DNA from: Priestia megaterium NBRC 15308 = ATCC 14581 | GTDB taxonomy: Bacteria > Bacillota > Bacilli > Bacillales > Bacillaceae_H | Reading direction: 5' to 3' | DNA: 64,000 nucleotides | NCBI RefSeq assembly: GCF_000832985.1 | Contig: NZ_CP009921.1 | Location: 62,001-126,000, forward strand | Shown here: in pieces, positions 3,283-33,077 of the stretch | How the letters are laid out: every line of letters begins with the position of its first letter | Position numbering within the stretch: position 1 is the first letter of the stretch | The notes under the pieces: generated by a model | Databases searched by the model: none | What the model saw: the letters and a program-made list of their open reading frames with translations, nothing else | Told to the model about the DNA's origin: nothing | Position numbers and translations under genes: made by a program

Positions 3283-3352
3283 CATATTTGTCGTCAGTAA
3301 GAGTAAATAGTGAAACTGATTATTTTTATAAAACACTTTCCTATTTACTTAC
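3283..3352. repeat. 70-bp dispersed repeat, copy 2
   Basis: Head ATATTTGTCGTCAGTAAGAG then GTAAATAGTGAAACT, tail CTATTTACTTAC. The ends form an inverted repeat (TAAGAGTAAATAG against CTATTTACTTA). The tail runs directly into the left arm of the intron-split dif-like site, so the element may be accessory sequence for that site. Confidence 0.5.
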
Positions 3353-3456
3353 GTCGGGTAGGCGGGCACTCTCACGAGCGCCCGCCCCCCTAAGAACCGT
3401 ACGTGACAGATTTCCCGTCATACGGCTCAAGCCTTCTTTTTATCCGAACAACTTAT

Positions 3457-5106
3457 TTATTTAATACACGGTACATGTACTAATTTAGCAGCTTTACCTG
3501 TAGAAACTTCTAAGTTTCGTACCGTAACTTTTTCGCCATTTTGTAGAGTGTGTTTACATAATGCGCAACGATAACCTTGTTTCCTTGCGAGCTTCATCCT
3601 ATCTAGCGTATTTTCGCTATTAAAGACCTTACGGTCTCGCTTTTCCCAATAATCTTTTAGATTCGGATCATCTGGGCTGTTCTTGTAGGCTACCATGACA
3701 TGTCGTTCTATTTTAATCCAAGACATCTTCAGCAATTGAATATTAGTAAGTGGACATGTGAGAATCCATTTATTGTTTCCACCGTGGTGGGGCTTCTTAA
3801 AATAGCGTTTATTAATCCATTTCCAAGACTTCCTTGGATGCAATTGTCTAAGGTGTTTCCTTATTTTCAGGAAAACGTAGTTGTCCATATAACCAAAGGT
3901 CTTTTTTGACACGACATGTTTCCAATACTGTCCATGGCCTCGAATAATAGGGTTTAGAACACGTATGATTTCTTTTACTGGTCGTCCTCGCATCGCTGCG
4001 AACGTATCTTTTATCTTGCTTTTTGCTTTTCTGATGTTATCTTTACTGGGTTTGATCAATAACTTATTTCCTTGCTCAGTCTTGTATTGACGAAGTGAGA
4101 AACCGAGAAAATCAAACCCATTCTCGATATGTGTTACTTTTGTTTTATCAACACTCAATGTAATCCCGCGCCTTTTTAAGTAAGGAATCAACTTTTGATA
4201 CATAAGTTGAGCTTGCTCATTAGTTTCCGTTACGATGACGAAGTCATCTGCGTAAGCGACACGTCCCATCTTACACTTTGGATCAATCTTGTAGCCCGTG
4301 CCTGATTTATATGTCTTTCGATAAACAATACCAATCTCTTTTTCCATTCCATCTAGCGCTATATTAGCTAGAAGGGGAGAAGCTACACTTCCTTGGGGAC
4401 TTCCTTCCATTGTGTTGTGAAATATACCTTGCTCCATATATCCCATCTTGAGCCATCTCCCAATCAGCTTGTTTCCTGGAAACATAGACGTTTGTTTACT
4501 TATCCAATTATGATTGAGATGGTCGAAACACCCTTGGAAATCTCCTTCAAACACCCACTTTTTCTTACTATTCGTATTGAGCTTTTTAAAGAGATTGCTA
4601 ATGGCATCATGAGTGCTTCTTTTAGGGCGGAAACCGTAGGAACTGGCTTCGAACCTGACTTCCCATTGCGGTTCTAGTGCGTTCTTTACGACATTTTGAT
4701 AAACTCGATCTCGTATCGTCGGAATACCGAGGGGTCTTAATTTCCCATTCTTCTTAGCGATAAACGTTCGTTTCGCTGGTTTTGGGCGATGCTGAAAAAC
4801 ATTACGTCTTAGTAGTTCTTGATACAGTTTGATACGTTCGTTTGGTTGTGAGGCCGTATAGCCGTCTACACCAGGTGTTCGCTTACCGGTATTTTGTTGC
4901 GTTACTCTGCGAATGGAGAGTAATAAATTAGCTTTACTCCGGAGGAGTAAACGTTGAAGTTTTCTTACTCTTCTTCGTTGATTTTGTTGTTCGGCACGAT
5001 AAATTCTTTGTCGTAACTTCGTTACATATTGTTGTATAGTATTCCAATCAATAGAGTACCAACCTTTATGCGAGACGTGCGCCGACGCTCGTAGAGAGGT
5101 ATTCAT
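3457..5106 (-). CDS. ltrA: Group II intron reverse transcriptase/maturase
   Basis: A 549-residue intron-encoded protein. It has the RT domain with RPLGIPTIRDRVYQ, SSYGFRPKRSTHDAI, EGSPQGSVASPLLANI and the catalytic YADD box in RVAYADDFVIV; then a maturase (X) domain around residues 370-460 (PIIRGHGQYWKHV); then a short C-terminal region with CALC and a final HVPC. That tail resembles an HNH endonuclease domain but lacks the central His-His pair, so nuclease activity may be lost. The frame extends 12 codons further upstream, but AAAGGAG upstream of the ATG at 5106 marks the start. The protein would splice its own intron RNA and reverse-transcribe it during retrohoming. Confidence 0.93.
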   Translation of the reverse strand: MNTSLRASAHVSHKGWYSIDWNTIQQYVTKLRQRIYRAEQQNQRRRVRKLQRLLLRSKANLLLSIRRVTQQNTGKRTPGVDGYTASQPNERIKLYQELLRRNVFQHRPKPAKRTFIAKKNGKLRPLGIPTIRDRVYQNVVKNALEPQWEVRFEASSYGFRPKRSTHDAISNLFKKLNTNSKKKWVFEGDFQGCFDHLNHNWISKQTSMFPGNKLIGRWLKMGYMEQGIFHNTMEGSPQGSVASPLLANIALDGMEKEIGIVYRKTYKSGTGYKIDPKCKMGRVAYADDFVIVTETNEQAQLMYQKLIPYLKRRGITLSVDKTKVTHIENGFDFLGFSLRQYKTEQGNKLLIKPSKDNIRKAKSKIKDTFAAMRGRPVKEIIRVLNPIIRGHGQYWKHVVSKKTFGYMDNYVFLKIRKHLRQLHPRKSWKWINKRYFKKPHHGGNNKWILTCPLTNIQLLKMSWIKIERHVMVAYKNSPDDPNLKDYWEKRDRKVFNSENTLDRMKLARKQGYRCALCKHTLQNGEKVTVRNLEVSTGKAAKLVHVPCIK

Positions 5107-5707
5107 AACAGCACGCTCCTTTTCGTTAGAAGATAGCCACAAATTTATTTTCGTGTTGAAGACCCATGAGAAGTAGGCGCTCTTTCGAGCCTGTCATTGT
5201 CTGTGAAGACGACAGTATCCGTCCAGTTATACAATGTTCTTGATTTCCTGTCCCTTTTCAGGGTAACGGCTTTCGCTTTTTCCCATATCCCATACCCTCT
5301 GTCACATCGTTTGACTTTGCAGTCATCCTACTGCTTGCGCAGATGACATAGGGCTTACCAAGTTCCACATTCCACAGATACGATAGGGGTAGGTAGGTTC
5401 TTTACTCCGGGTAAGATGCGGGACGCATCAGAGTAGCATTATGATTCTACTTTTCCTCTTACCAAGACCCAAGCTAGTCCATGCATTATCTTGAGCTAAG
5501 AGTTACGAAGCTTACAAACCTTCACTTTCGTTTACCATACCTATCTTCTCCTAGCAGTATTCTGGACCATGCATTTGTCCTCTGTTTCCGCATTTCCTCA
5601 TGCAACCGACAGACTCGTTACCAAGCATGCCGTTTCGGATGGAGATCATCTTTGCGTCTAGATGAGTAGCGTCAGCTACACTGTAAGAAAGCGACTTCTT
5701 GTCGCAC
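5107..5707 (-). ncRNA. Group II intron 5' ribozyme region (domains I-III)
   Basis: About 600 nt between the intron's GTGCGAC start and the maturase start, without a credible ORF. It includes the EBS1 candidate CATAAT at 5443-5438 (minus strand) and many GAAA-type loops. Domain IV is inferred to hold the ORF, domains V and VI to lie at 3353-3450. Confidence 0.75.
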
Positions 5708-5731
5708 CATAATGTCTCTTATAAGAAACGA

Positions 5732-5773
5732 AAAGATCCCCAGAACTTTGCAAAGTTCTGGGATCTTTTTTAA
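5732..5773. terminator. Terminator hairpin next to site S0
   Basis: Near-perfect stem AGATCCCCAGAACTTT / AAAGTTCTGGGATCT with one bulge, followed by TTTTTT on the plus strand and TTTTCG on the minus strand. It insulates the PadR module from the interrupted site. Confidence 0.7.
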
Positions 5774-5793
5774 ATAAAATTTAGTTTACCTAT

Positions 5794-5852
5794 TTGACAC
5801 TTATATCATTTAATGATATATATTAATTAATGATATATCATTAAATGATATA
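5794..5852 (+). promoter_or_regulatory. padR promoter with two palindromic operators
   Basis: -35 TTGACA (5794-5799), 17-bp spacer, -10 TATATA (5817-5822). Two palindromes, ATATCATTTAATGATAT just upstream of and inside the -10, and ATATCATTAAATGATAT just before the RBS, cover the promoter and likely leader. The arrangement fits autorepression by the PadR protein encoded next. Confidence 0.7.
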
Positions 5853-5864
5853 AGGAGGTTCATA

Positions 5865-6200
5865 ATGCCAAGAAATGATTCATTAGAAATGGGAGAACTC
5901 ACAGATACTTCTTACTATATTTTACTGTCCTTAGTAGAAGCTAAACATGGTTATCTTATTATGAAGACAATTGAAGTCATGACAAGTAATCAATTTTCGA
6001 TTGGACCTGCATCTATGTATACCACTATAAAAAAGCTCTTATCAGCGAAATTAATTAAGTTATGTGATGAAGAAAATGACAAAAAGAAGACGTATGTAGC
6101 AACAGATAAAGGCATTGAACTATTAAAGAAAGAAGTACAGCGTAGAAAAGAAATGATTAAACATGCTGAAGAAATTTTAAATCAAAAGGGAGGTCTGTAA
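5865..6200 (+). CDS. PadR-family transcriptional regulator
   Basis: 111 residues with the PadR winged-helix fold: TDTSYYILLSLVEAKHGYLIMKTIE, then GPASMYTTIKKLLSAKLIKL, a wing (DEENDKKKTYVATDKGIELL) and a C-terminal dimerisation helix. ATG follows AAGGAGGTTCATA. It is co-transcribed with a DUF2812 gene 1 nt downstream. PadR plus DUF2812 is a common Bacillus pair, in which the regulator usually represses its own operon and the membrane partner may be a sensor or stress protein. Two matching palindromes in the promoter support autoregulation. The pair forms the module between dif-like sites S0 and S1. Confidence 0.88.
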   Translation: MPRNDSLEMGELTDTSYYILLSLVEAKHGYLIMKTIEVMTSNQFSIGPASMYTTIKKLLSAKLIKLCDEENDKKKTYVATDKGIELLKKEVQRRKEMIKHAEEILNQKGGL

Positions 6201-6201
6201 T

Positions 6202-6741
6202 GTGAAACAAACAAAGTATATAATGAGTGGTGGAATCGCATTTTCTGAAGAAAAAGATTTAGAAAAACTTAGTAACTATGCAAAAAAGGGATGGATTTTA
6301 GATCGTTTTGCTTTATTTGGTTACAAATTAAAAAAGGCTGAACCACAAGAAATACAATACTCAATGGATTTTCAGCCAGATGCAGATGAAGAGTATTTCA
6401 TGTATTTTGAAGAGGCAGGATGGTCACATGCTTGCTCAATTGGAAATGAAATTCATATATTTATTGCCTCTATGAAAGCAAAGCCAATTTATTCAGACAA
6501 AGCAACCACAATTGAAAGATATGAAAGAGAAAAAAAGCAAATGGGTAAAGCTGCTTTAATTACTCTTACTATAAGTATAATGTTTTTATTATTTAATATT
6601 ATGAGTTTATATGGTTGGTTACCTGAATACATCGGAAATATTAGCGAGATTTTATTAATAATTTCAATTATTATCCTAGTCTTTCCCGGCCTCCCATATA
6701 TAGCTTATCTATATAGATTAAATAAGTTGCGCAAATTTTGA
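6202..6741 (+). CDS. DUF2812 membrane protein, partner of PadR
   Basis: 179 residues. The first ~95 match the DUF2812 pattern: IAFSEEKDLEKLSNYAKKGWILDRFALFGYKLKKAEPQ then YFMYFEEAGWSHACSIGNEIHIFIA. Two transmembrane helices follow (about 115-137 and 145-168) and a short basic tail. The start is GTG, one base after the padR stop codon and behind GGGAGGT, so translation is probably coupled. Function is unknown; the family almost always sits next to a PadR regulator. Confidence 0.8.
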   Translation: MKQTKYIMSGGIAFSEEKDLEKLSNYAKKGWILDRFALFGYKLKKAEPQEIQYSMDFQPDADEEYFMYFEEAGWSHACSIGNEIHIFIASMKAKPIYSDKATTIERYEREKKQMGKAALITLTISIMFLLFNIMSLYGWLPEYIGNISEILLIISIIILVFPGLPYIAYLYRLNKLRKF

Positions 6742-6743
6742 TA

Positions 6744-6796
6744 AAAACCAACAAAGGCTCTGTAATCATACATTGAGCTTTTGTTGGTTTTTTATA
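6744..6796 (+). terminator. Terminator of the padR-DUF2812 operon
   Basis: Stem AAACCAACAAAGGCTC paired with GAGCTTTTGTTGGTTT (one mismatch), followed by TTTT. Confidence 0.75.
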
Positions 6797-6801
6797 GATG
6801 C

Positions 6802-6846
6802 AAAAATAAGCAATGCACTATTTTAAATGCATTACTTATTTTTTAT
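6802..6846. terminator. Terminator for the 43-aa minus-strand gene
   Basis: 13-bp stem with one mismatch, AATAAGCAATGCA / TGCATTACTTATT, A-rich before and T-rich after. It overlaps the stop codon of the small gene at 6836. Confidence 0.55.
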
Positions 6847-6967
6847 AGATTACTTCGTAAGCTACATATATAACGAACAAAGTTATGAAAGTAATTCCTA
6901 TTTCTATAAACGATCCGCAGATTATACCTTCAACATATATTTGGCCATTATAAAAAGATACTCCCAT
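6836..6967 (-). CDS. Small membrane protein (43 aa)
   Basis: A reading frame MGVSFYNGQIYVEGIICGSF... ending ...YEVIYKK, with one transmembrane helix (GIICGSFIEIGITFITLFVIYVAY). ATG at 6967 lies behind AGGGGTGTTAAGT, and a terminator follows. The upstream sequence contains an inverted repeat (TAACACC / GGTGTTA) that could be an operator. No family recognised. It lies convergent to the PadR operon and 55 bp from site S1. Confidence 0.5.
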   Translation of the reverse strand: MGVSFYNGQIYVEGIICGSFIEIGITFITLFVIYVAYEVIYKK

Positions 6968-7022
6968 ACTTAACACCCCTATGTATACCGGTGTTAAAGT
7001 ATATGTTTATATATTTCCTTCT

Positions 7023-7050
7023 AGTTAACATAAAACCATTTCTAGGAACT
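7023..7050 (+). other. dif-like (XerC/XerD-type) site S1
   Basis: Left arm AGTTAACATAA, 6-bp spacer AACCAT, right arm TTCTAGGAACT. Compared with the Bacillus subtilis dif site (reverse complement arms AGTTTACATAA and TTCTAGGAAGT) 20 of 22 arm positions match. It is the best copy here. Its last base is the first base of the minus-strand stop codon of the next gene. Confidence 0.85.
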
Positions 7051-7532
7051 TATTCAAAGTGTTCAGGAGACCAAATAGCTATATCATCGCCTGGAACGGC
7101 AACTAAAAGCCACTCATTGTCGCTTCCTCCCCAATGATCACCTAGTTGCCAACATTCATAGTTCGTATCATGACCATTTACAAATAAAATGCTACCTGAT
7201 TCAAATGAAATGATGAGATGGGGCGACCGATGACCTAAATGTACATCCACTATTTTTTGTCTCTTAACATCCCAAATATGTTTAAAGTGCTGTTCTTCAG
7301 TATGTGTGGGGACTTCTCTCTCCGAAGATGGATAGACAAGTGGGACCTCATCATATACCGTCCACGCTGTTTCAATCGTTAAAATGAATGCATCATCTTC
7401 TTTTCGATCATAGTGAGTAAAGATTAATGAAATGGCGGAAACCTCAGACGCGAACTTTATCCCATCCATTTGACTACCAACAAGTAAATGCCTTAACGCT
7501 TTCTCTGTGAATCTCCGATTCTCTATTTTCAA
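7050..7532 (-). CDS. Hypothetical protein (160 aa), single-gene module
   Basis: A soluble, acidic, tryptophan-rich protein without signal peptide or membrane helix. Recognisable stretches are FILTIETAWTVYDEVPLVYP, SPHLIISFESGSILFVNG and CWQLGDHWGGSDNEWLLVAVPGDDIAIW, which look like alternating beta strands. I do not recognise the family; immunity proteins can look like this but nothing proves it. Start codon is TTG, 7 nt behind GAGGAGA. That Shine-Dalgarno site lies in the terminal bases shared by both IS110 copies. The gene ends exactly at dif-like site S1. Confidence 0.65.
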   Translation of the reverse strand: MKIENRRFTEKALRHLLVGSQMDGIKFASEVSAISLIFTHYDRKEDDAFILTIETAWTVYDEVPLVYPSSEREVPTHTEEQHFKHIWDVKRQKIVDVHLGHRSPHLIISFESGSILFVNGHDTNYECWQLGDHWGGSDNEWLLVAVPGDDIAIWSPEHFE

Positions 7533-7689
7533 AGTCGTTTCTCCTCGTATATTATATTTAAGCCCTATTTAGGAGCTAAGATCTGTTTCCATATTAATTA
7601 ATAAACTAAATAACATATTACTTGGATGTCTCAAGATATTTCTAGATAATGATCATAGGATCATTTGGGACAATTCTTCTTTCTCCTGT

Positions 7690-7912
7690 GGATTAACCAC
7701 AATGTAAGACTGTTTCTCAGTGAACGCGCGGGACTCCCTACTCGCAGGCTGAGCAGCCTGTCATTCGAACCTAGAGGGTAGTAGCTCTATGGCGGCTTTC
7801 GAATGCAGGGGAAGCTCTGATACACGAGGTTGTTGGTCGGCGTACACACTAGAGATATCTCGAGACGTCCAAGGAAATGCCAAGTGATTCTAAATCGAAA
7901 GGAGGTCTCTCC
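7690..7912 (+). ncRNA. Probable IS110 bridge RNA region, copy 1
   Basis: The GC-richer region upstream of the transposase can fold into several hairpins (for example GCAGGCTG ... CAGCCTG, and CATTCGAA ... TTCGAATG enclosing a smaller stem). IS110 elements of this group are known to encode a guide (bridge) RNA in this position. The exact RNA ends are not visible from sequence alone. Confidence 0.5.
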
Positions 7913-7913
7913 C

Positions 7914-9143
7914 GTGAGATTATTTGTTGGTTTAGATGTAAGTTCGTTTGATATGAAAGTATGCATTTTAAATGGTGAAGGAGAAAAGCTGAATGCCTTT
8001 ACCGTCACCAATGACTTACCAGGCGCGACGTTGCTTAAAGAGCTTTTATTGGACTGCATAGGCGATCAAGAAGTTGACGTCTTAAAGATTGGCTTAGAAT
8101 CTACATCGGTCTATAGTTTTCACCCGTCGATGTTTCTCCATCATGATGAAGACTTAAAAGTCTTCGGTGCCAAGGTGTTTGTCATGAACCCTAAACAAAT
8201 AGCTAATTTTAAGAAAAGCTATTCGGACATGAACAAAACAGATGAAATCGATGCCTTTATCATTGCGGATTACTTACGTTTTGGACGTAACCAGATGTCA
8301 GTGGTCAAAGAAAGCCAATACGTGGCCTTACAACAACTGACTCGGTCCCGTTACCAACTCATTCGTATGATGACAAAAGAAAAGCAGCATTTTCTTCAAC
8401 ACCTAAGCTATAAGTGTAATACTTTCTCTCAAGAAGTAGACTCCTCGGTCTTCGGTAACGCAATGATGGAGCTTTTCTTAGAGAAATACAGCTTGGAAGA
8501 ACTAGCCCACCTACCACTGGAGGAACTAGCAGCATTCCTTCAAGAGAAAGGGAAAAACCGATTTGGTGACCCGAAATGTGTGGCAACCTCCATTCAGAAA
8601 GCCGTGCGATCTTCGTATCGCTTGGACAAGGTAGTGGAAGATTCCATGGATGTGATACTTGGGACCTCGATCGAGGTCATTCGCACCTTCCAAAAGCAGA
8701 TAAAAGAAATTGACAAAGCGATCAAAAAACTGATGGCTGGATTGACACACACGCTTGAATCCATCCCTGGCATTGGTCCCGTATTCGCTGCGGGTATCAT
8801 AGCTGAAATTGGCCAAATAGACCGGTTTGATGATGAAGCTAAAGTAGCAAAATACGCAGGTCTATACTGGCGAAAGCATCAGTCTGGGCGCTTTACTGCC
8901 GAAGACACGTCCCTATCACGTAACGGTAACCACTACTTGCGATATTACTTAGTTGAAGCCGCCAACTCCGTACGAAAGCAAGTTCCAGATTACCGGGATT
9001 ACTACGTGAAAAAGTACAGTGAAGTACCAAAACATCAACACAAACGTGCACTCGTTCTAACCGCAAGAAAACTCGTGCGATTGGTGGATGCGCTACTACG
9101 CAGTCACCAACTCTTTACGCCAGAAAGGGGCGTGAAAATATGA
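7914..9143 (+). CDS. IS110-family transposase (RuvC-like DEDD recombinase), copy 1
   Basis: 409 residues from the GTG at 7914, which follows AAAGGAGGT; a longer frame without RBS continues upstream. The N-terminal DEDD domain shows FVGLDVSSFDMKV (first Asp), LKIGLESTSVYS (Glu) and KTDEIDAFIIADYLRFGR (two Asp). The C-terminal Tnp_IS110 domain shows SIPGIGPVFAAGIIAEIG and TSLSRNGNHYLRYYLVEAA, the latter with the conserved catalytic serine region. It would catalyse RNA-guided transposition. The protein is identical to that of copy 2, so at least one transposition or duplication is recent. Confidence 0.93.
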   Translation: MRLFVGLDVSSFDMKVCILNGEGEKLNAFTVTNDLPGATLLKELLLDCIGDQEVDVLKIGLESTSVYSFHPSMFLHHDEDLKVFGAKVFVMNPKQIANFKKSYSDMNKTDEIDAFIIADYLRFGRNQMSVVKESQYVALQQLTRSRYQLIRMMTKEKQHFLQHLSYKCNTFSQEVDSSVFGNAMMELFLEKYSLEELAHLPLEELAAFLQEKGKNRFGDPKCVATSIQKAVRSSYRLDKVVEDSMDVILGTSIEVIRTFQKQIKEIDKAIKKLMAGLTHTLESIPGIGPVFAAGIIAEIGQIDRFDDEAKVAKYAGLYWRKHQSGRFTAEDTSLSRNGNHYLRYYLVEAANSVRKQVPDYRDYYVKKYSEVPKHQHKRALVLTARKLVRLVDALLRSHQLFTPERGVKI

Positions 9144-9337
9144 CATAAAACTTGTCATCGCTACCTTTCAAATAATTTCCAGTAAATAACATTCGTTACT
9201 GGTCTAGTTTCGTGATGCTTTTTTTAAGTAAATTGCCCTTTGATAACTTTACGTTCTTTCATTTTTCAGTTGACATACTACCGCAGGTCTTTAACGTTTT
9301 TTGTGCTTATTGTCTCATGTATGGGTCGTACATTTAT

Positions 9338-9365
9338 AATTACCATAATGTGATTTATAGGTATC
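9338..9365 (+). other. dif-like site S2
   Basis: Left arm AATTACCATAA, spacer TGTGAT, right arm TTATAGGTATC; 16 of 22 arm positions match S1. Same orientation as S1. It ends 2 bp before the stop codon of the DUF2711 gene. Confidence 0.65.
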
Positions 9366-9367
9366 TA

Positions 9368-10033
9368 TTAAATAATTGAATAAAGATATGTCTCTTTATC
9401 ACATATGAAAGCTTCAAGGTTTAGAGATTTAATTGTATCCTCAATATTTGTATCTTTTGCTAAAAGCAATGTTATAAACGAATCATAGATCCCCATAAAT
9501 GCAAAATCCATCTTTTCATCTGTGATAATTGACTCATTAGGAGATAAGTTAGCTATTTCTATAGATGACATATCATTGACTTTAAATGAACCGTTTGTGT
9601 CGTGAATAGGTTCAGAAAAATATAAAGTATTTGCCCCTTTTGAACAGAGAATTTTTACTAAACTATTTAGTATAAACAATGAGGTATTAACTTCTTCGGG
9701 GTAATAAAAATCAGGATTAGACTTAACATAAGAAGCTAATTTTTTATATTCATCACTAGGCACACCAGTAAGGTGTTGCAACGCTATAGAGAGTTCCTTG
9801 TAGGATTTTAAATTACATTTGCCCATTACTTCTTTCCACGATACTGGTTCTCCAAGTTTAAGCATTTCCTCGTCACTAGGATATATATGCTGATAAGGAT
9901 TTTCTCTCTTTGATTTCTCCCAACCAGAGGGCATCTGAATAAAAGGGTGGAATAAAACAGCAGCAGAATTAAAGTCATTAGATAATTGGGACAAAATAGG
10001 TAAATCTCCATCAATCCATATATAATCCAACAA
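9368..10033 (-). CDS. DUF2711-family protein
   Basis: 221 residues from the first of two tandem TTG codons (10033), which follow AAAGGAGATG; a longer frame from an ATG at 10072 has no RBS. The start LLDYIWIDGDLPILSQLSNDFNSAAVLFHPFIQMP and the SWKEVMGKCNLKSYKELSIALQHLTG segment fit DUF2711, a family of unknown function confined mainly to Bacillus and relatives. No signal peptide or membrane segment. The gene alone fills the 733-bp module between dif-like sites S2 and S3. Confidence 0.65.
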   Translation of the reverse strand: MLDYIWIDGDLPILSQLSNDFNSAAVLFHPFIQMPSGWEKSKRENPYQHIYPSDEEMLKLGEPVSWKEVMGKCNLKSYKELSIALQHLTGVPSDEYKKLASYVKSNPDFYYPEEVNTSLFILNSLVKILCSKGANTLYFSEPIHDTNGSFKVNDMSSIEIANLSPNESIITDEKMDFAFMGIYDSFITLLLAKDTNIEDTIKSLNLEAFICDKETYLYSII

Positions 10034-10098
10034 AACGAGACATCTCCTTTGAATATACTTAGTTACGTACATTATATATACAGAGAACAGTCATTTCT

Positions 10099-10126
10099 AG
10101 TCAACATAATCCAGATTTCAGGAACC
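10099..10126 (+). other. dif-like site S3
   Basis: Left arm AGTCAACATAA, spacer TCCAGA, right arm TTTCAGGAACC; 18 of 22 arm positions match S1, same orientation. Confidence 0.75.
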
Positions 10127-10129
10127 TAT

Positions 10130-10163
10130 CATAAAAAAGAGCAGACTTAAGCCTGCTCTTTTT
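10130..10163. terminator. Terminator at the end of the SMI1/KNR4 gene
   Basis: Stem AAAAGAGCAG(A) / CTGCTCTTTT around a short loop, with A and T tracts on either side. It sits between site S3 and the stop codon at 10162. Confidence 0.65.
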
Positions 10164-10713: not shown

Positions 10714-10823
10714 GTTTTTGTCCTCCTTAAGTAACGCCACAATAATTCTATCATTCGTAATTGTAGTAACTATCAATATTTGAAAAAATAACCTACTCTA
10801 AGGTGTATATCCTATACAAATTT

Positions 10824-25499: not shown

Positions 25500-25617
25500 T
25501 CTTTTTTACTAATGAATCTCCTTACAGAGCTTTAAATTAGAAATAAATAATGATAATTTGTTAGTCAAAAACAAACCCTAAAAAACCACATTGAATAATT
25601 TCCTAATTTGTTTTTTT

Positions 25618-25738
25618 AGAGCATCGCAACTTCAAAATTTCAACATTCAGTGATGAGCAGCTAGCAAAGGTAATGGATTTTCTAGGTTGCAAAATAAAGA
25701 CACTTAATATAAGTGTCTTTATTTGTTATCGCTTTTGT
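25618..25738 (+). pseudogene. Gene fragment between immunity operon and AraC gene
   Basis: An open stretch reads FLEHRNFKISTFSDEQLAK then VMDFLGCKIK... and stops before 25740, with no start codon or RBS. It looks like the C-terminal remnant of an older gene, family not recognised. A terminator hairpin lies inside it. Confidence 0.3.
25688..25722. terminator. Terminator of the AraC-family gene
   Basis: 14-bp stem AATAAAGACACTTA / TAAGTGTCTTTATT with a short loop and T-rich tail. Confidence 0.65.
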
Positions 25739-25741
25739 TCC

Positions 25742-26626
25742 CTATAACTCAAAATTTAAATTCAACGGTTCATCTGGAAGTTTTTGATGATATTCTTCAT
25801 TTGTAGTTGGAATTGAACAATCAACAGTCTCAAAGGCGATACCATCAATCCAAACCTTTCCGTTGCCATGTAATAATATCCCGAATGATATGACGGTACT
25901 TTCCTCTGGTACATCTAATACAATTGAGTATTGATTCCAGTTTGTTGTATTTTTGATTGGACGATCCTGCATATTATCAAAAGATAGAATTTCTTCATTT
26001 TCCCCATCGATACGCATCCACAAACCAGCCCAATTTACTACGTCTTCTGTTTTAATAAACCCTGATAAGCGTAGTCTCTCACCTTTATACATTGTTGCTT
26101 TAAAAACTTGCATCATCGTTGCAAAACCTCTTGCATCTTCCTTTTTAGACATAATATATCCAGATGCTTTACCTTGATGAATAGTTTTGTAATCAACACC
26201 CATCTCATAGTCTTGTGGATCAGTACCAGATGGCATCCAACCTTTTGGTAATAATGAATGTTCCATAACTACTTCCTCCTCGAATAAAATTACCTTTTTG
26301 GCATATTTGCGATATTTAGCAGGGGGCATTTGATAAAGCTTTTGAAAAGATCTCGTAAATGCCTCTTGAGATGAAAAATGGTAATGAAATGCAATATCTA
26401 ATATTCGTTGATTTGTGTTAACTAAGTCACTTGCCGCATGTGCCATCCTTCTTACTTTTATATAATTAGCAATGCTCATACCCGTAATTGATTGAAAAAT
26501 TCGATCGAAATGAAAAGGAGAATAGCCTATATACTTAGAAATACCTATGACTTCTAACGGTTCGCTTAAATTCTCTTCAATATAATCAATCGCTTTTTGT
26601 ACAAGTTCTACATAGTTTTTATACAC
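25742..26626 (-). CDS. AraC-family regulator with C-terminal beta-sandwich domain
   Basis: 294 residues, GTG start behind AAAGGAG. Residues ~8-105 form the AraC double helix-turn-helix (VQKAIDYIEENLSEPLEVIGISKYIGYSPFHFDRIFQSITG ... AFTRSFQKLYQMPPAKYRKY). Unlike most AraC proteins the DNA-binding part is N-terminal; residues ~145-290 look like a carbohydrate-binding-module-like beta sandwich (LRLSGFIKTEDVVNWAGLWMRI, ISFGILLHGNGKVWIDGI). The ligand is unknown. Its target cannot be named. Confidence 0.8.
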   Translation of the reverse strand: MYKNYVELVQKAIDYIEENLSEPLEVIGISKYIGYSPFHFDRIFQSITGMSIANYIKVRRMAHAASDLVNTNQRILDIAFHYHFSSQEAFTRSFQKLYQMPPAKYRKYAKKVILFEEEVVMEHSLLPKGWMPSGTDPQDYEMGVDYKTIHQGKASGYIMSKKEDARGFATMMQVFKATMYKGERLRLSGFIKTEDVVNWAGLWMRIDGENEEILSFDNMQDRPIKNTTNWNQYSIVLDVPEESTVISFGILLHGNGKVWIDGIAFETVDCSIPTTNEEYHQKLPDEPLNLNFEL

Positions 26627-26776
26627 TGTTCTCTCCTTTGTTTAAGGTGTTACCATTAATTTACTATATATTTCTTGCTATTTTTTGATTATTTTTGCGT
26701 TCTTTAGTATATAGGTATTTAAAAAAGCTAGCATATTAGCAATAATTTTAAAAAAGGGTCTTATTTATAAGACCCT

Positions 26777-27871
26777 TTAATTCCTTTCTTCTAAATGCTG
26801 TTTTAATATTTTTTTGAACTCCTGAGGATTATCTATACGGATTGCAACTTGTTCATATTTCCTTTTTATACCCATAAATAGGGTTGCTTCCACTGGAGAT
26901 TTTAACTTTAAAATGATATCAGGATGAACTTTTTCAAAGTCGCGTGCAATAAACTCAATTGTTGTTTTTGAGATTTTTTGCTCTAATATCTCAGTGTCTA
27001 TTATTACTTTTTCTATATCATTCAATTGTATCTCCATGCGTTTTGCTAAACCAAGAGAAAGGTAGATACGGTTATGTTCTATGCGTAAAGGGTTAAACCT
27101 TAATGCTTGAATATCGCCTAAAAAGAAAATAATTGAATAGATATTAAGTATCAGTAGAATAAGCGATAAGATAACTGATTTACTATGTAATAACCAATGA
27201 ATACCTAATGTTTCAATTACAACAGCATGAATCATCATTATTTGAAACGTAATAAGGCTTGAGCGTTTGTAAATAGTAAAAGTATTAGCTTCAGGATTCG
27301 GTTGTTTCTTCCATGTGCCAAAGGCATAATAAAACATCATCATTTCTGAACAAATGATTTGTATAATAGGTCTTTTAGAAAACTTTTCGTTTATAACATA
27401 CGAAAAAGAAAATAAAAGTGGTAAGGAACTTGTCTTTACCTTTTGAATTATGCTAGGTAAATTTTTAGCTAACGTAAACAATATTGAAATCTCAAATAAA
27501 ATTAATAGAGCTTCTACCCCAATACCTAGCCACATAACTAACTTAAAAGAAGATAAATACTCAATTGGAATTATAAACCGTGCGGAAATAAGCCCTGTTG
27601 CCATTAACACAATGAAATATTTCCAATTAAACTTACGCTGCCACGCTAAAAACAGTAAGGGAACCACAAGACTTAAATCCAAAATAGAACCTAATACTAC
27701 TCCATTGAAATTAGAAGATAAGGAATCAATTTCAAAAGGAGAATGATATAACAAATAATTTGAACTTAATACTAGTAGTAGCAATAAAAGGGATAATAGA
27801 GACACTGAATTCTTCTTAAGTAACAACCAATACACCTCATTTTTTAGTTCTTTAAATACATCAAATATCAA
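26777..27871 (-). CDS. Multi-pass membrane protein with soluble C-terminal domain
   Basis: 364 residues: eight or nine hydrophobic helices up to about residue 270, then a ~95-residue soluble tail (NRIYLSLGLAKRMEIQLNDIEKVIIDTEIL) resembling a PH-like fold. TTG start at 27871; a second TTG at 27826 has a better RBS (GAGGTG) and is an alternative. Similar Bacillus proteins are sometimes mislabelled beta-carotene monooxygenases. Function unknown. Last gene before site S6. Confidence 0.6.
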   Translation of the reverse strand: MIFDVFKELKNEVYWLLLKKNSVSLLSLLLLLLVLSSNYLLYHSPFEIDSLSSNFNGVVLGSILDLSLVVPLLFLAWQRKFNWKYFIVLMATGLISARFIIPIEYLSSFKLVMWLGIGVEALLILFEISILFTLAKNLPSIIQKVKTSSLPLLFSFSYVINEKFSKRPIIQIICSEMMMFYYAFGTWKKQPNPEANTFTIYKRSSLITFQIMMIHAVVIETLGIHWLLHSKSVILSLILLILNIYSIIFFLGDIQALRFNPLRIEHNRIYLSLGLAKRMEIQLNDIEKVIIDTEILEQKISKTTIEFIARDFEKVHPDIILKLKSPVEATLFMGIKRKYEQVAIRIDNPQEFKKILKQHLEERN

Positions 27872-27937
27872 ATTCCTATTAATTCCATTTTATCAATAAT
27901 ATTAAGTTTAATCACTATGTATATCATATACAAAGGT

Positions 27938-27965
27938 AGTTAACATAATCACTCTTCAAGGAACC
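27938..27965 (+). other. dif-like site S6
   Basis: Left arm AGTTAACATAA, spacer TCACTC, right arm TTCAAGGAACC; 20 of 22 arm positions match S1. Preceded by ATATACAAAGGT, the conserved flank. Confidence 0.82.
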
Positions 27966-28211
27966 AAGTGAGCAAAAGAACCCTTGCGGCAGTAGGGTTC
28001 AGCTAAGGATTCTTTTGCTTGAGTATGCATCTTTTTATACATCGTTGATATGACTACGTTCTTTGGGTAGTTGAAAGAAACGAGAATGTATAAAAAGAGC
28101 TCCTTTTATACATATGCTTTTACGGGAAAATATAGTATTTGTAGCAAAAATGTGCTAAAATTTACTAGAATCCGTTTATCATACGCTTTATACGTGTGAA
28201 CCCTGTTTATG

Positions 28212-28516: not shown

Positions 28517-29332
28517 TTATCCTTTTTTCTTACCAATATAAAGCAAATGTGACGAAATGCCTAAAGTATAAGGGTCGGTTGCTGTTTTCTTTAATAATTC
28601 AATTAATCGATCAAACTCAACTTGTCCCTTGTCTGTCCAATAATCCCATTGTTCTTTAGATAAAAGAGAACCAATACTAGATGATCCAATTAGGCTTAAG
28701 GTTTCAAATCCATTAGATTCCATAAAGGGATTAATTTCTTGTAGATCAAAGTAATAAGCTCCTGTAAATCTTCCTTTATCTTCATGATTAAAGCTGCCAG
28801 TAGCAATAAACTCTTCGATATTGTCAATTGTATTATTGGGTTTCCACGCTTCTGGATGTAACAATGAAGAGATAGTGTGCCTAATTCGGGACATAAAGGC
28901 AATAAATACAACTCCCTCATTTTTTGTCACGCGGTACAATTCTTTAACAGCTGCGTCACGATCTTGTTCATTCTGTAGGTGATACATTGGCCCCATCATC
29001 AAGGAAGCATCGAATTCTTCATCTTTTAATAAATTTAAATCCTTTGCATCCATAATATGAAATCCATTAAATTGATTAAAAAGCTCAAGTTCTTTTGCTT
29101 TATCCTCAGCTATATTTACTAATCTGGGCGTAAGGTCAGTTAGCGTTACCTGAAATCCTTTCTCTGCTAGTTTCATGGCATATTTACCAGGACCAGCTCC
29201 ATTATCTAACACCCTTCCGTTTTCTGGTAAGTACTTTTGCATATAATGCCAGTTAATTTGAAACTCTAATGGTTCTCTATCTAGACGCCCCCACTCATCA
29301 AATGTTGAGTAATAATCCATTACTTTGTTCAT
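28517..29332 (-). CDS. SAM-dependent class I methyltransferase
   Basis: 271 residues from the ATG at 29332 behind AAAAGGGG. Motif I is GRVLDNGAGPGKYAMKLAEKG, motif II VTLTDLTPRLVNIAEDKA, followed by DASLMMGPMYHLQNEQDRDAAVKELYRV. This is the Methyltransf_25/11 type that acts on small molecules; the substrate cannot be told. The only gene between sites S6 and S7. It could be a tailoring or detoxifying enzyme, as is common for cassette genes. Confidence 0.85.
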   Translation of the reverse strand: MNKVMDYYSTFDEWGRLDREPLEFQINWHYMQKYLPENGRVLDNGAGPGKYAMKLAEKGFQVTLTDLTPRLVNIAEDKAKELELFNQFNGFHIMDAKDLNLLKDEEFDASLMMGPMYHLQNEQDRDAAVKELYRVTKNEGVVFIAFMSRIRHTISSLLHPEAWKPNNTIDNIEEFIATGSFNHEDKGRFTGAYYFDLQEINPFMESNGFETLSLIGSSSIGSLLSKEQWDYWTDKGQVEFDRLIELLKKTATDPYTLGISSHLLYIGKKKG

Positions 29333-29429: not shown

Positions 29430-29457
29430 AATTAACGTAATGTGGTTTTATAGATAT
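29430..29457 (+). other. dif-like site S7
   Basis: Left arm AATTAACGTAA, spacer TGTGGT, right arm TTTATAGATAT; 14 of 22 arm positions match S1, with the right arm weak. The flank GATATACAAAGTC matches the other sites and supports it. Confidence 0.6.
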
Positions 29458-29471
29458 ATTTTTTAATTTAG

Positions 29472-29957
29472 TTAGTTTACCTTTTCATACACATGAAAGT
29501 AATGTTCATAATGATTGTTTTCATCTTGAGTACCTTTCTCAACTGATAACTCTTTCCAGAGGGCAAGATCAACTTCTGGAAAAAAACGATCACCCTTAAA
29601 ATAATGATTAATCCTAGTTATGTATAATTTATGGGTATAGGGTAAGAACTGACGATAAATTTCTTCTCCCCCAAGGATAAATACTTCTTCTCCTTCACAC
29701 ATAGAAAGAGCATGTTCAATTAAATAAGCTATATGACAATCTTGAGCCCTATAATTTTTATTTGTAGTCATTATGATATTTTTTCGTCCATCTAAAGGTT
29801 TTCCAATAGATTCATAATTTTTCCTACCTAAAATAATTGAATGCCCCATAGTAACTTTCCTTAGATACTTCCAGTCATTTGGGAGCCTCCAAGGAATATC
29901 GTTATCCTTTCCAATTACATTTCCTTTTCCTACAGCAACCATTGCAGATATAATCAT
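29472..29957 (-). CDS. dfr: Dihydrofolate reductase
   Basis: 161 residues from the ATG at 29957; an ATG four codons upstream touches the RBS. DHFR signatures: IISAMVAVGKGNVIGKDNDIPWRLPNDWKYLRKVTMGHSIILGRKNYESIG, then EVFILGGEEIYRQFLPY. It reduces dihydrofolate with NADPH. A Leu precedes the Gly-Gly pair where trimethoprim-sensitive S. aureus DHFR has Phe98, so reduced trimethoprim binding is possible. It is the only gene in a 571-bp module between S7 and S8, which is how mobile resistance cassettes look. Resistance is inferred, not shown. Confidence 0.92.
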   Translation of the reverse strand: MIISAMVAVGKGNVIGKDNDIPWRLPNDWKYLRKVTMGHSIILGRKNYESIGKPLDGRKNIIMTTNKNYRAQDCHIAYLIEHALSMCEGEEVFILGGEEIYRQFLPYTHKLYITRINHYFKGDRFFPEVDLALWKELSVEKGTQDENNHYEHYFHVYEKVN

Positions 29958-30028
29958 ATGGTTTCTCATCTCCTTTCCTCTGATTTTAACAAATAGAGGA
30001 GGATATGCTGTATATTCTATACAAAGTT

Positions 30029-30056
30029 AGTTCACGTAATGTGCCTCCTAGAAAGT
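30029..30056 (+). other. dif-like site S8
   Basis: Left arm AGTTCACGTAA, spacer TGTGCC, right arm TCCTAGAAAGT; 17 of 22 arm positions match S1. Preceded by CTATACAAAGTT. Confidence 0.75.
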
Positions 30057-30057
30057 A

Positions 30058-30084
30058 AAAAAGCTAGCAAGTGCTAGCTTTTTA
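30058..30084. terminator. Terminator next to site S8
   Basis: Stem AAAAAGCTAGCA / TGCTAGCTTTTT with a tiny loop, between S8 and the end of the coaB-like gene. Confidence 0.7.
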
Positions 30085-30090
30085 AGAAAC

Positions 30091-30792
30091 CTATCTTGAA
30101 ACAGCTGTTGTTTCCTGTAAAAATAACTGATTAAGGGCTTGTATAATCATATTTGCTGTTTCTTTTTTATTAGCACACTGGTATATGTCATTATCTTGAT
30201 TAATTATATAATGTGTAGCTGAATTAACATGTAAGGAATCAGAGGTATTTGCCACCATTAAACTAGCCTTAGAAGTACCCATTCTTATTTTAGCTCTCTC
30301 TATTAGGGTTTCTTTATCTACGTTACTTTCTAACTTAAAACCTACTAGCATCAGATGAGGGTTCCATTCTTTGATTTGCTTTAAAACTTTAGGTGCTTTC
30401 TTAAAGTGAATAACCGGAGGATTGTCGCTAGATATTTTTCCATTCTGAGGAATAAGGTTCCCCTCTTTGTCCAACATCTTGTCTACTATCCAATCCGACC
30501 CTGCAGCTGTCATGATAACAGCATCTATCTTTTCACTTAAGATAATGGCTTTCATTTTGTCTTGAAGATCTACTATTCCTTCAAAACTTTCTAACTTTAA
30601 ACTCTCTGAATCCTTATCACAGGGCCTTTCCGCAAAATAGCCGTGTAAATATGTAACTGTTGCTCCTTCTGCTAATGCTTCCTCTGCAATCATTTTCCCT
30701 ATTTTCCCTTTAGCTAAATTAGTGTGTCCCCTAACCTCATCCCACTTTTCTATACATCCACCACTGGTAATAAGTATATTTTTTCCTAACAT
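30091..30792 (-). CDS. coaB: CoaB-like phosphopantothenate-cysteine ligase
   Basis: 233 residues, a stand-alone ligase domain like streptococcal CoaB, not the usual Bacillus CoaBC fusion. Seen: NILITSGGCIEKWDEVRGHTN, AVIMTAAGSDWIVD, FKKAPKVLKQIKEWNPHLMLVGFKLE and KASLMVANTSDSL. CoaB joins 4'-phosphopantothenate to cysteine in coenzyme A synthesis. It is divergent from a fatty acid operon in the same module, which makes a shared theme of CoA and lipid metabolism likely. Confidence 0.85.
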   Translation of the reverse strand: MLGKNILITSGGCIEKWDEVRGHTNLAKGKIGKMIAEEALAEGATVTYLHGYFAERPCDKDSESLKLESFEGIVDLQDKMKAIILSEKIDAVIMTAAGSDWIVDKMLDKEGNLIPQNGKISSDNPPVIHFKKAPKVLKQIKEWNPHLMLVGFKLESNVDKETLIERAKIRMGTSKASLMVANTSDSLHVNSATHYIINQDNDIYQCANKKETANMIIQALNQLFLQETTAVSR

Positions 30793-30924
30793 TACTTTTG
30801 CCCCTTTTTATAATTCTATTTTATTACATAAATAAATATTAAATAAACCGCAGTCTAAATAGCAATACATATGTGTCTTCTAAGAAACTTTAAAGCTTAT
30901 TTACATTTTTTTCATATGAAATTA

Positions 30925-30953
30925 TTGACTTTATTAGTACCTAGTACTAATAT
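30925..30953 (+). promoter_or_regulatory. Promoter with FapR operator for fabH-plsC-fabZ
   Basis: -35 TTGACT (30925-30930), 17-bp spacer, -10 TAATAT (30948-30953). The spacer contains TTAGTACCTAGTACTAA (30934-30950), a perfect match to the palindrome recognised by FapR, the malonyl-CoA-responsive repressor of fatty acid and phospholipid synthesis in Bacillus. The chromosomal regulator should control this plasmid operon. Confidence 0.85.
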
Positions 30954-30991
30954 CAATTTATATATCTTGGTGTTAAAGAAAGGTGAATTCG

Positions 30992-31981
30992 ATGAAATCA
31001 ACTGCACGTATTACAGCAATAGGTACATACGTACCAGAAAAAAGACTTACGAATGACGATTTAGAAAGAATTGTGGATACGAACGATGAATGGATCGTGA
31101 AACGAACTGGCATGAGGGAAAGAAGAATTGCCGATGAAAACGAGTATTCTTCTGACCTAGCTATTAAAGCAATTGAAAACTTAGTGGAGCAATATCAGAA
31201 AGAGTTAAAGGATGTAGGATGTATCGTTGTCTCAACTACAACACCGGACTATGCATTTCCAAGCGTAGCAGCCCAGATACAGGATTACTTTGATATCCCT
31301 ACAACTGGGGCTCTAGACTTTAACGCTACCTGTGCTGGCTTTACATATGGATTACACATGGCAAACGCCTTTATTACATCTGGACTTCATCATAAAGTCT
31401 TAGTCGTAACTGCAGAAACCTTATCGAAGGTTACAGATTATACAGATCGCACTACCTGTGTTCTATTTGGGGATGGAGCTGCAGCTGTTTTGGTGGAAAG
31501 TGATGCAGAGCGCCCAAGTTTTATTGCTACGCATATTGGTACAAATGGAAAGGGAGGTAAACATGTATACCGTACAAATTTATCTACTACTATGCATGGA
31601 CAACCTTTGAGTTCAAGTGGCAAGATGGTTCAAAACGGAAGGGAAGTATATAAGTGGGCATCTAGAACAATTCCTTTAGGTATATCTGAATTGCTAGAAC
31701 AAGCAAATCTACAAAAGAATGAAGTAAATTGGTTCGTTCCACACAGTGCCAATTTACGAATGATTGAGTCTATATGTGAAAGATCAGAGTTTCCAGTTGA
31801 GAAGACATTAACTAGTGTTGAGTATATGGGAAACACTTCTTCCGTTTCCATTCCTCTAGCACTACAAATAGGGATAAACAAAGGGAAATTAAAAGATGGA
31901 GACGTTCTCTTACTCTACGGATTTGGAGGAGGCCTTACCCACGCAGGTCATATTATTAAATGGGATTTAGGTAAGGAGTAA
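30992..31981 (+). CDS. fabH: Beta-ketoacyl-ACP synthase III
   Basis: 329 residues from the ATG behind AAAGGTG. Catalytic Cys in FNATCAGFTYGLHMANAF, His in WFVPHSANLRM and Asn in YMGNTSSVSI; the C-terminal LLLYGFGGGLTHAG loop is typical of FabH. It condenses acetyl-CoA or branched acyl-CoA with malonyl-ACP to start fatty acid synthesis. First gene of a three-gene operon with plsC and fabZ under a FapR operator. As a second copy beside the chromosomal enzymes it could alter acyl primer use. Confidence 0.92.
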   Translation: MKSTARITAIGTYVPEKRLTNDDLERIVDTNDEWIVKRTGMRERRIADENEYSSDLAIKAIENLVEQYQKELKDVGCIVVSTTTPDYAFPSVAAQIQDYFDIPTTGALDFNATCAGFTYGLHMANAFITSGLHHKVLVVTAETLSKVTDYTDRTTCVLFGDGAAAVLVESDAERPSFIATHIGTNGKGGKHVYRTNLSTTMHGQPLSSSGKMVQNGREVYKWASRTIPLGISELLEQANLQKNEVNWFVPHSANLRMIESICERSEFPVEKTLTSVEYMGNTSSVSIPLALQIGINKGKLKDGDVLLLYGFGGGLTHAGHIIKWDLGKE

Positions 31982-31988
31982 ATAATCA

Positions 31989-32579
31989 ATGTATATCTTT
32001 GCAACAAGAATTCTACAACTTCTACTATCTTCAATGAATGGACATATGAACGTAGTAAACAAGGATAAACTTCCTCAAAATGAACCATTTATTGTTGTTT
32101 GTACGCATAAAAGCTGGATTGATGTCGTGTGTTTAGGAATAGCGTTATATCCGACTCCTATTCACTTTATGGCTAAGAAAGAGTTATTTAATAAGGTTTT
32201 CATCAAAAAGCTTTTAAAAAAATTAAATGCATTTCCTGTAGATCGAGGTAATCCTGGACCCAGTGTCTTAAAAATACCTTTGCAATTGCTAAAAAAGAAA
32301 CAAGTAGTTGGGATCTTTCCAAGTGGAACAAGAAACTCAGAAGAGAAAGCTTTAAAAAATGGAGCTATTCATATTGCTTCAAGGGCAAGTGTTCCTATTA
32401 TACCAGCAGTATATATAGGACCTCATACCATAAGAGACTTATTAGGAAGAAAAAAAAGATTTATCATTTTTGGAGATACTATTCATGTGCCTAAAATGAC
32501 TAAAGATAAAGAAGCTGTTACAGAAGCAACAAACGAAGTGATCTCAAAAGTGTTTGAAGAATTAAAAGGTAATATTTAA
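31989..32579 (+). CDS. plsC: 1-acyl-sn-glycerol-3-phosphate acyltransferase
   Basis: 196 residues. HX4D motif in [12 protein letters not shown], substrate motif [15 protein letters not shown] (the FPEGTRS motif with Ser for Glu), and [10 protein letters not shown]. One weak N-terminal membrane segment. It adds the second acyl chain in phosphatidic acid synthesis. Starts 8 bp after fabH behind AAGGAG. Loss of the usual Glu in the FPEGTRS motif may alter acceptor preference. Confidence 0.88.
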
Positions 32580-32592
32580 AAGGAGAAAAATT

Positions 32593-33027
32593 GTGCTAGA
32601 TATTCAAGAAATTCAAAGAATTATACCCCATCGTTATCCTTTTTTACTGGTAGATAAAATTATTAAATTAAAAGAAGGAAAAAATGCAATTGGGCTTAAG
32701 AACGTTACAGCTAATGAGGAATTCTTCAGTGGACATTTTCCTGGCTATTCGGTTATGCCAGGTGTATTAATTGTTGAAGCTTTGGCTCAATTAAGTGGAA
32801 GTATAATGCTACAAAAAGAAGAAAATCGTGAAAAGATAGGCCTTTTAACTGGTATTGAAAATTGTCGCTTTAAGAAACAAGTTCGTCCAGGGGATCAATT
32901 ATACTTAGAGGTAGAAATGACACGAGTCCGAGGAGCTGTTGCAAAAGCTCATGGCATTGCTAAAGTAGATAATAATATTGTGTGTGAAGCAGATTTAACA
33001 TTCTTTCTTTGGGATAATGGGAAGTAA
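32593..33027 (+). CDS. fabZ: 3-hydroxyacyl-ACP dehydratase
   Basis: 144 residues, GTG start behind AAAAGGAG, 13 bp after plsC. Hot-dog fold with catalytic His in [14 protein letters not shown] and Glu in [15 protein letters not shown], plus [11 protein letters not shown]. It dehydrates hydroxyacyl-ACP in fatty acid elongation. Third gene of the FapR-controlled operon. FabG and FabI are absent, so the operon must work with chromosomal partners. Confidence 0.92.
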
Positions 33028-33049
33028 GTAAATTTCCATATACACAGGT

Positions 33050-33077
33050 AGTTAACATATAGGTTCCTTAAATAATC
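33050..33077 (+). other. Eroded dif-like site S9 (left arm only)
   Basis: Left arm AGTTAACATAT (10 of 11) with flank ATATACACAGGT, nearly the same as the flank of S6. The right half CTTAAATAATC matches only 4 of 11. It marks the right end of the module array. Confidence 0.5.

Follow-up and report, generated by a model that had tools for sequence, protein, structure and literature searches.

Arrays of dif-like sites as probable gene-cassette attachment sites in Priestia megaterium and its relatives

A 64,000-nucleotide stretch of Priestia megaterium NBRC 15308 = ATCC 14581 (here called the window; bases 62001–126000 of contig C7, a 301,264-bp plasmid in a genome of 5.75 Mb) contains an array of ten short sequences resembling dif, named S0 to S9. 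Positions 3000–34000 match plasmid unnamed1 of this strain at 100%. Judged from their sequence and context, the ten are borders of accessory gene modules or remnants of such sites. We propose, with a probability of about 75%, that sites of this kind are ectopic copies of dif serving as attachment sites for gene cassettes, and that a Xer-type recombinase, probably the XerC/XerD of the host, moves these cassettes. Each site is 28 bp long and consists of two 11-bp arms around a 6-bp spacer, whose halves are referred to as the left and right triplet.

Distribution and layout of the sites

Sites were scored with a weight matrix, which was seeded with the first strong copies, iterated on about 707 kb of this genome (G000) picked as site-rich, and finally built from 115 sites. 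In these same stretches, which are also the training DNA, 95 places scored at least 16 bits versus none in the reversed DNA; the same DNA or pattern in reverse served as the control for the scans of this paragraph. A simpler pattern matched the whole genome 54 times and 4 times when reversed. Outside the training DNA, nine named Priestia plasmid stretches held 96 matches of at least 15 bits versus 0 reversed, one place being counted once per strand and one plasmid being represented both as such and as its dimer. The site-rich stretches of two further Priestia genomes gave 246 matches versus 2, and those of a second genus 54 versus 0. Stretches of G000, G003, G007, G014 and G015 were chosen because they bear sites, and the set is not a random one. 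With reversed controls near zero, chance or an AT-rich background was ruled out as the source of the sites.

One plasmid, L079, is a dimer of L078. It was retained in the nine-plasmid scan, the scan of the two further genomes, the 398-site survey, the 285-gap count, the small sample on mid-spacer exchange and the all-against-all site counts described here and below. It was excluded fully from the flank-sharing pairs, the spacer-half linkage, the neighbour-spacer and interval counts, the intron-end survey and the box-motif counts, and L078–L079 alignments and L079 self-alignments were excluded from the all-against-all homology comparisons.

Counted across genomes with one fixed pattern at zero mismatch, ten Priestia genomes held 0–87 matches (G007 87, G003 59, this genome 44, G009 21, G001 15, five others 0–7). 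Two genomes of a second genus in the same family, G014 and G015, held 39 and 24, and the remaining four genomes of the family 0–5. The 381 genomes outside the family, in a 397-genome sample of the order, had 0–3 matches each, so that an equally frequent motif in comparable DNA, one of two results named by the initial annotation as a refutation, was not seen; among the matches listed there, most were AGTTTACATAATATATATTATAGGAA or near it, the presumed true dif. Dif itself is widespread, and its multiplication is limited to two genera of one family in the 397-genome sample. The simpler pattern has 28 chromosomal matches in this genome besides the presumed dif; except for two lone ones farther away, they are found at distances of 30 kb to 1.2 Mb from dif, most of them clustered. 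A phage origin was considered and rejected: hits to the strict pattern came from 85 viral contig stretches, one in each, and no viral arrays appeared at that stringency.

Neighbouring sites no more than 5 kb apart form 327 same-direction pairs versus 21 opposite ones, the former with a median spacing of 847 bp. All ten window sites lie on the + strand, confirming an earlier reading of their orientation. Open reading frames (ORFs) of at least 100 amino acids (aa) cover 63% of the sequence yet hold 6 of 398 sites. The layout that was looked for, same-direction cassettes mostly with a single gene, was found: 137 of 223 intervals of 250–2000 bp (median 697 bp) contain one ORF of at least 80 aa, 58 contain none and 28 two or three. 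These ORFs run against the site direction in 118 cases and along it in 77.

A 15-bp inverted repeat, TGTATANNNTATACA, occupies positions −20 to −6 of 244 of the 398 sites (at least 20 bits; at least 9 of 12 positions), as against 3 of 398 random places. Among the window sites, S4, S6 and S8 have a perfect copy, S1, S3 and S9 a weak one or none, and the repeat is not present at the presumed dif of this genome. No covariation was detected in the repeat: when the left base deviates, its partner pairs in 15–26% of cases. The repeat therefore looks like a protein-binding site and not like a folded strand.

A conserved structured element of about 165 nucleotides (nt) begins at the right arm of many sites with the right triplet CTC. 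Its two boxes (TATGCAGCTTTTTATACAT and ATGTATAAAAAG) follow 43 of 63 CTC sites versus 13 of 426 others (56 of 489 in total). The element contains a terminator-like hairpin (fold z-score −3.15), has no Rfam match above the gathering score, and may function as an RNA or in plasmid replication. Copies are found in the window (27966–28130) and in L031, L032, L033, L071–L075, L078, L080–L087 and L219. By eye, the 10.6-kb contig L033 also shows a short repeated motif near GAGCAAACTACYCAAGAYG before terminator-like hairpins, at about 4290, 4520, 4781, 5298, 5418 and 6411.

Homology borders, exchange and the likely recombinase

Replicons were aligned all against all, and a homology end was counted as lying at a site when within 45 bp of it, with 200 shifted site sets as control. 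Ends at sites in both partners numbered 150 of 1920 (shifted controls: mean 1.44, maximum 10); counting also the ends that meet a site in one partner only gives 300 (mean 101, maximum 177). Other ends fall elsewhere, for example at the borders of insertion sequences (IS) and introns. Nineteen alignments of at least 300 bp span from site to site in both partners within differing contexts, several of them representing one cassette family in different pairs. Two window modules are among the nineteen. The LysE module (10804–11698) matches pBP01R2b (L077 14992–15886) at 97.3%, and the DUF2711 module (9337–10111) matches pMLY91_4 at 93.0% and contig C2 of G007 at 86.0%. Other alignments pair a chromosome with a contig of plasmid size, for example positions 1810526–1811725 of the G007 chromosome with the 172-kb contig C2 of the same genome (96.3%).

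Precise site-to-site modules also differ between related replicons, as the initial annotation had anticipated for plasmids, with few clean cases. The DHFR module (29430–30029) is missing from the P. aryabhattai XT37 plasmid NZ_CP128553, which has an empty site at 4149. The flanks there match at 92.0% and 94.8% and are joined at AATTAACATAA-TGAATT-TTTTAGGGAGT, with a right arm that differs from S8 at several bases. Likewise, a 411-bp interval with flanks of 637 and 190 bp is present in one and absent from the other of CP109763 and contig C7 of G007.

The point of exchange was located by comparing the flanks of 422 non-identical sites, pairs of intermediate similarity being assigned to no class. 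The upstream flank alone is common to 73 site pairs, the downstream flank alone to 102, and both to 4. The left arm is kept in upstream-sharing pairs and the right arm in downstream-sharing pairs. For triplet identity, the pairs were thinned to one per site, which gave backgrounds of 13.4% for the left and 4.5% for the right triplet. In upstream-sharing pairs the left triplet was identical in 17 of 50 and the right in 4 of 50 (not above background); in downstream-sharing pairs the values were 18 of 55 and 19 of 55. This division of arms and triplets by flank places the exchange within the 6 bp of the spacer: the right triplet stays with the right arm, and the left one may go with either side. 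Only a few left triplets are common (TGT 87, TCA 87, AAC 76 and TGG 44 of 422), and linkage within the left half of the spacer (0.34–0.76 bits) exceeds that across its middle (0.04–0.21 bits). Strict mid-spacer exchange had been suggested by a small sample; the larger one weakens this to exchange within the spacer. A rule by which neighbouring sites share spacers was not seen. Xer exchange through a heteroduplex spacer, or a single strand exchange combined with another resolution step, could give such mixed spacers.

In the mechanism that we propose, a cassette would be the DNA between two same-direction sites. Its start would be the XerC/CodV-type arm that forms the right part of one site, and its end the XerD/RipX-type left arm of the following site, often with the inverted repeat before it; in between there would usually be one gene. 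The labels of the arms, left XerD-type and right XerC-type, are presumed from B. subtilis dif. A Xer-type tyrosine recombinase, most likely host XerC together with XerD, would exchange strands inside the 6-bp spacer, and the cassettes would enter and exit arrays on the chromosome and on both small and large plasmids, presumably via a circular or cointegrate intermediate. The inverted repeat may have a role in this process, which may still be active today. Since neighbouring spacers usually differ, excision would be rare and arrays would be stable.

It is the match of the arms to dif that makes XerC/XerD the likely enzyme. S1 and S6 agree best with the genome's own presumed dif, at 20 of 22 arm positions, and the other seven unsplit sites agree at 12–18 of 22. 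Integrase matches resembling XerD (298–299 aa) and XerC (300–335 aa) occur in each of the 16 family genomes, and in this genome both proteins pass their family-model cut-offs. The integron integrase model TIGR02249 gave no match above cut-off in the 16 family genomes; the 14 control genomes gave none either, which leaves this search without a positive control. The comparison of recombinases covered tyrosine recombinases, serine recombinases not being searched, and none stands out as confined to array-bearing genomes.

Several observations weigh against this proposal. The action of XerC/XerD on these sites is likely from the arm match, yet XerC/D-like genes are present in all 16 family genomes and arrays in some only. 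In Acinetobacter, the sites seen to recombine had spacers that were identical or closely related, according to PMC11705084 and PMC13141974, whereas here adjacent sites share left triplets at a rate of 0.107 versus 0.146 after shuffling, not above chance. Linkage within the right half of the spacer (0.04–0.14 bits) is no higher than across the middle. As many as 1770 of the 1920 homology ends are not at sites in both partners. Collinear alignments are separated by 285 gaps; sites stand at all four ends of only 8 of them (two of which repeat another via the dimer L079) and at three ends of 9, so that clean insertions or deletions are a minority. A 1605-bp difference between pPmC-142-7 and pPmC-129-13, considered as a clean insertion, was dropped for its right side: its left border is precise, but past the right site the sequences diverge for about 165 bp before identity resumes.

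A possible but unlikely alternative is that these are pdif modules of the Acinetobacter kind, with 11-6-11 sites and transfer by cointegrates. The site plan is the same, cointegrate transfer is documented for Acinetobacter in PMC11705084 and PMC13141974, and the right triplets move together with their arm (19 of 55, the background being 4.5%). However, 327 of 348 neighbouring pairs point in the same direction instead of alternating, spacers are shared between adjacent sites no more often than by chance, and the inverted repeat precedes 244 of 398 sites, whereas PMC11705084 reports no accessory sequences near two of its sites.

Still less probable is a dedicated recombinase besides XerC/XerD that has adopted a dif-like site. 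Two tyrosine recombinases could be proposed, one of 382 aa on this plasmid (C7 292410, L258) and one of 290 aa on the chromosome (369581, L255), both related to XerC/XerD and below both cut-offs. Integrase matches like the 382-aa enzyme (frames of 392–398 aa, 64–69 bits) are found in G000, G003, G007, G008 and G009. Their distribution does not follow the arrays, however: no such match is listed in G014 and G015, which have 39 and 24 sites, and G008 has one with 0 sites. Moreover, both arms of the host dif are kept in the sites.

We consider it very improbable that the sites are regulatory or protein-binding intergenic repeats at which homology ends through hot spots of homologous recombination or microhomology joining: the sites are intergenic and often stand beside terminator-like hairpins, and one exchange, on the right side of pPmC-142-7, lies in a repeated hairpin rather than in a site, but the arms are those of dif, they pair with opposite flanks and switch inside the variable 6-bp spacer, and joining in the conserved 11-bp arms would leave the spacer whole.

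A group II intron in the sites and relation to known systems

The group II intron at 3353–5707 interrupts the left arm of S0 after its sixth base. Rfam family RF00029, matched at 3353–3430, independently fixes the intron end at 3353, and TIGR04416 matches with 348 bits. Joined across the intron (ACTTAC + CATAATGTCTCTTATAAGAAAC), S0 scores 21.6 bits. All 16 full intron copies examined, 8 from the analysed stretches and 8 picked from 89 matching plasmid records, are inserted at the same base of a site, with joined sites scoring 21.6–30.6 bits. The 8 copies from the analysed stretches come from 33 pairings of fuzzy intron-end motifs, of which these 8, with matching ends, were kept and 25 dropped as unrelated sequence or the wrong partner end (all below 0). 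In the analysed stretches, each of the 20 intron 5' ends leads into CATAA or a sequence one base off, two of them (chromosome 3941288; G007 C4 34412) without a clean right arm beyond. Of the 16 family genomes, those with substantial matches to the intron are all array-rich: G000, G003 (there only partial), G007, G014 and G015. The fragments in G012 and G013 are weak, and the other nine, including G009 (21 sites) and G001 (15 sites), have none.

The Priestia sites resemble the pdif sites of Acinetobacter (also called dif or xrs) in their 28-bp plan and likeness to the host dif, and in having accessory genes between sites on plasmids and chromosome. For Acinetobacter, PMC12907356 describes plasmid and chromosomal dif-module islands, with 22 chromosomal sites in one strain. 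In contrast to those of Acinetobacter, the Priestia sites nearly all point in one direction, and a search for alternating C/D modules did not find them; neighbours also differ in their spacers, and the upstream inverted repeat is common.

Chromosomal integrons are long same-direction arrays of mostly one-gene cassettes, with exchange at a short site and a group II intron that targets this site. The Priestia arrays are similar in direction and gene content, in the short exchange site and in their site-targeting group II intron. Unlike in integrons, the site is dif-like, genes face both ways, and no integron integrase was found above cut-off in the 16 family genomes, within the limits of the search given above. 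Group IIC-attC introns insert repeatedly at one point of a cassette recombination site, as does the Priestia intron family. The Priestia target, however, is the XerD-type arm of a dif-like site, and the intron is classed here as group II only.

IS of the ISAjo2 type near Acinetobacter pdif sites target dif-like sites in one orientation, as described in PMC10132070. The Priestia intron is likewise a selfish element on dif-like sites in one orientation, but it is an intron and lies inside the other arm. Among the papers listed by searches of open full-text literature, which mostly leave out subscription papers, dif modules were described in Acinetobacter, with no such arrays in Priestia or other Bacillales and no group II intron in dif-like sites.

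The finding of the initial annotation stands and extends further than was stated there. The Priestia arrays are an integron-like cassette array built on dif sites, with the site type of dif modules but without their alternation. On balance we favour a broader view, in which Priestia and its sister genus would possess a superintegron-like system without an integron integrase. Housekeeping Xer proteins and a cassette-borne inverted repeat would shuffle hundreds of mostly one-gene dif cassettes between chromosome and plasmids, despite unlike spacers, in a system old enough to have its own family of homing group II introns. Most known gene shuffling of the integron kind is in Gram-negative bacteria. 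A dif-cassette system as large as this one in a harmless, genetically tractable spore former would allow one to study how Xer recombination might evade the spacer rule and the usual FtsK control, what the inverted repeat does, and how single genes are exchanged among plasmid-rich species. Much of the puzzling gene mixing on plasmids of Priestia may be due to dif cassettes, and the intron would join other retroelements that specialise in cassette junctions.

Sites and modules of the window

S1–S6 and S8 score 16–31 bits with the weight matrix (Table 1, which also gives the start positions taken for S0–S9), and the consensus of the initial annotation matched the window 3 times at up to 3 mismatches, compared with 0 in 100 shuffles. 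The ten-site array described there holds by score for these seven sites and for S0 once the intron is removed. S7 (1.8 bits) and S9 (4.6 bits) do not have a significant motif, since 46 and 23 + strand positions of the window, respectively, score as well; both were accepted only because homology to other plasmids breaks there. Two extra places were found, one at 34174 (+, 19.4 bits) within an ORF and one at 11827 (−, 16.1 bits) within an 83-aa unannotated open frame. Genes do end at S1 and S2, as had been noted: a gene stops on the final base of S1, and an ORF stops 3 bp beyond S2.

Table 1. Dif-like sites, modules and associated features of the window
Feature	Position	Strand	Evidence or remark
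S0, left piece (ACTTAC)	3347..3352	+	Dif-like site split by group II intron; 21.6 bits joined with 5708–5729
Group II intron inserted in S0, 2355 bp	3353..5707	-	ltrA annotated 3457–5106
S0, right piece (CATAA-TGTCTC-TTATAAGAAAC)	5708..5729	+	
Module: PadR regulator (5865–6200), DUF2812 protein (6202–6741)	5730..7022	+	Annotation
S1, AGTTAACATAA-AACCAT-TTCTAGGAACT	7023..7050	+	30.6 bits
Module: 160-aa unknown protein (7050–7532, - strand), IS110-family element	7051..9337	.	Annotation
S2	9338..9365	+	23.2 bits
Module: DUF2711 protein	9366..10098	-	Site-to-site matches
S3	10099..10126	+	25.6 bits
Module: SMI1/KNR4 protein	10127..10823	-	Annotation
Upstream inverted repeat of S4, TGTATATCCTATACA	10804..10818	+	12/12 positions
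S4	10824..10851	+	27.6 bits
Module: LysE transporter	10852..11670	+	Site-to-site match
S5	11671..11698	+	26.5 bits
Lantibiotic block: mersacidin-type peptides, LanM, transporter, protease, regulators	11699..25662	.	Annotation
Half-eroded site, right half TGGATT-TTCTAGGTTGC retained	25663..25690	+	2.5 bits; adjoins homology border 25680
Module: AraC regulator, monooxygenase-like protein	25691..27937	-	Homology
Upstream inverted repeat of S6, TGTATATCATATACA	27918..27932	+	12/12 positions
S6	27938..27965	+	27.0 bits
Conserved structured element abutting S6	27966..28130	+	
Methyltransferase gene	28517..29332	-	Annotation
S7, degenerate site, left border of DHFR module	29430..29457	+	Homology border only
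DHFR module	29458..30028	-	Missing at one site in P. aryabhattai XT37 plasmid
Upstream inverted repeat of S8, TGTATATTCTATACA	30009..30023	+	12/12 positions
S8	30029..30056	+	16.2 bits and homology border
CoaB-like gene (30091–30792); KAS III, acyltransferase and FabZ genes (30992–33027)	30057..33049	.	Annotation
S9, eroded site	33050..33077	+	4.6 bits; homology border

The unrelated contents first ascribed to the modules were confirmed, whereas the 16-kb lantibiotic block, which had been taken as a single module, comprises at least two, because 25680–27951 stands as a separate site-to-site module in plasmid L073. The half-eroded site at 25663 also marks this split, and the AraC/monooxygenase-like module matches plasmid p2 of strain 2020WEIHUA_L between p2's two sites (88.1%). 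The PadR/DUF2812 module is found together with the intron (3343–7054) in pKNU_01_3 (91.8%), and about 1.75 kb of the window (7.53 to 9.3 kb) is repeated elsewhere on the plasmid at 98–100%. For the SMI1/KNR4 module, no shared copy was found among the sequences compared. Positions 30896–33059 match L073 at 94.9%, the match stopping at the L073 site at 17160; no site was found at the border at 30896.

Elsewhere, the small related plasmids L081, L084 and L087 have catalase, HTH and kinase modules in common; in L081, the DUF3967 gene beside these modules encodes a different protein and runs in the opposite direction. Past S9, the window carries at 35118–42582 a run of genes annotated as an AAA ATPase, a helicase, a Shedu-type SduA domain protein, an exonuclease and a RES-domain NAD+ phosphorylase, which looks like a defence cluster.

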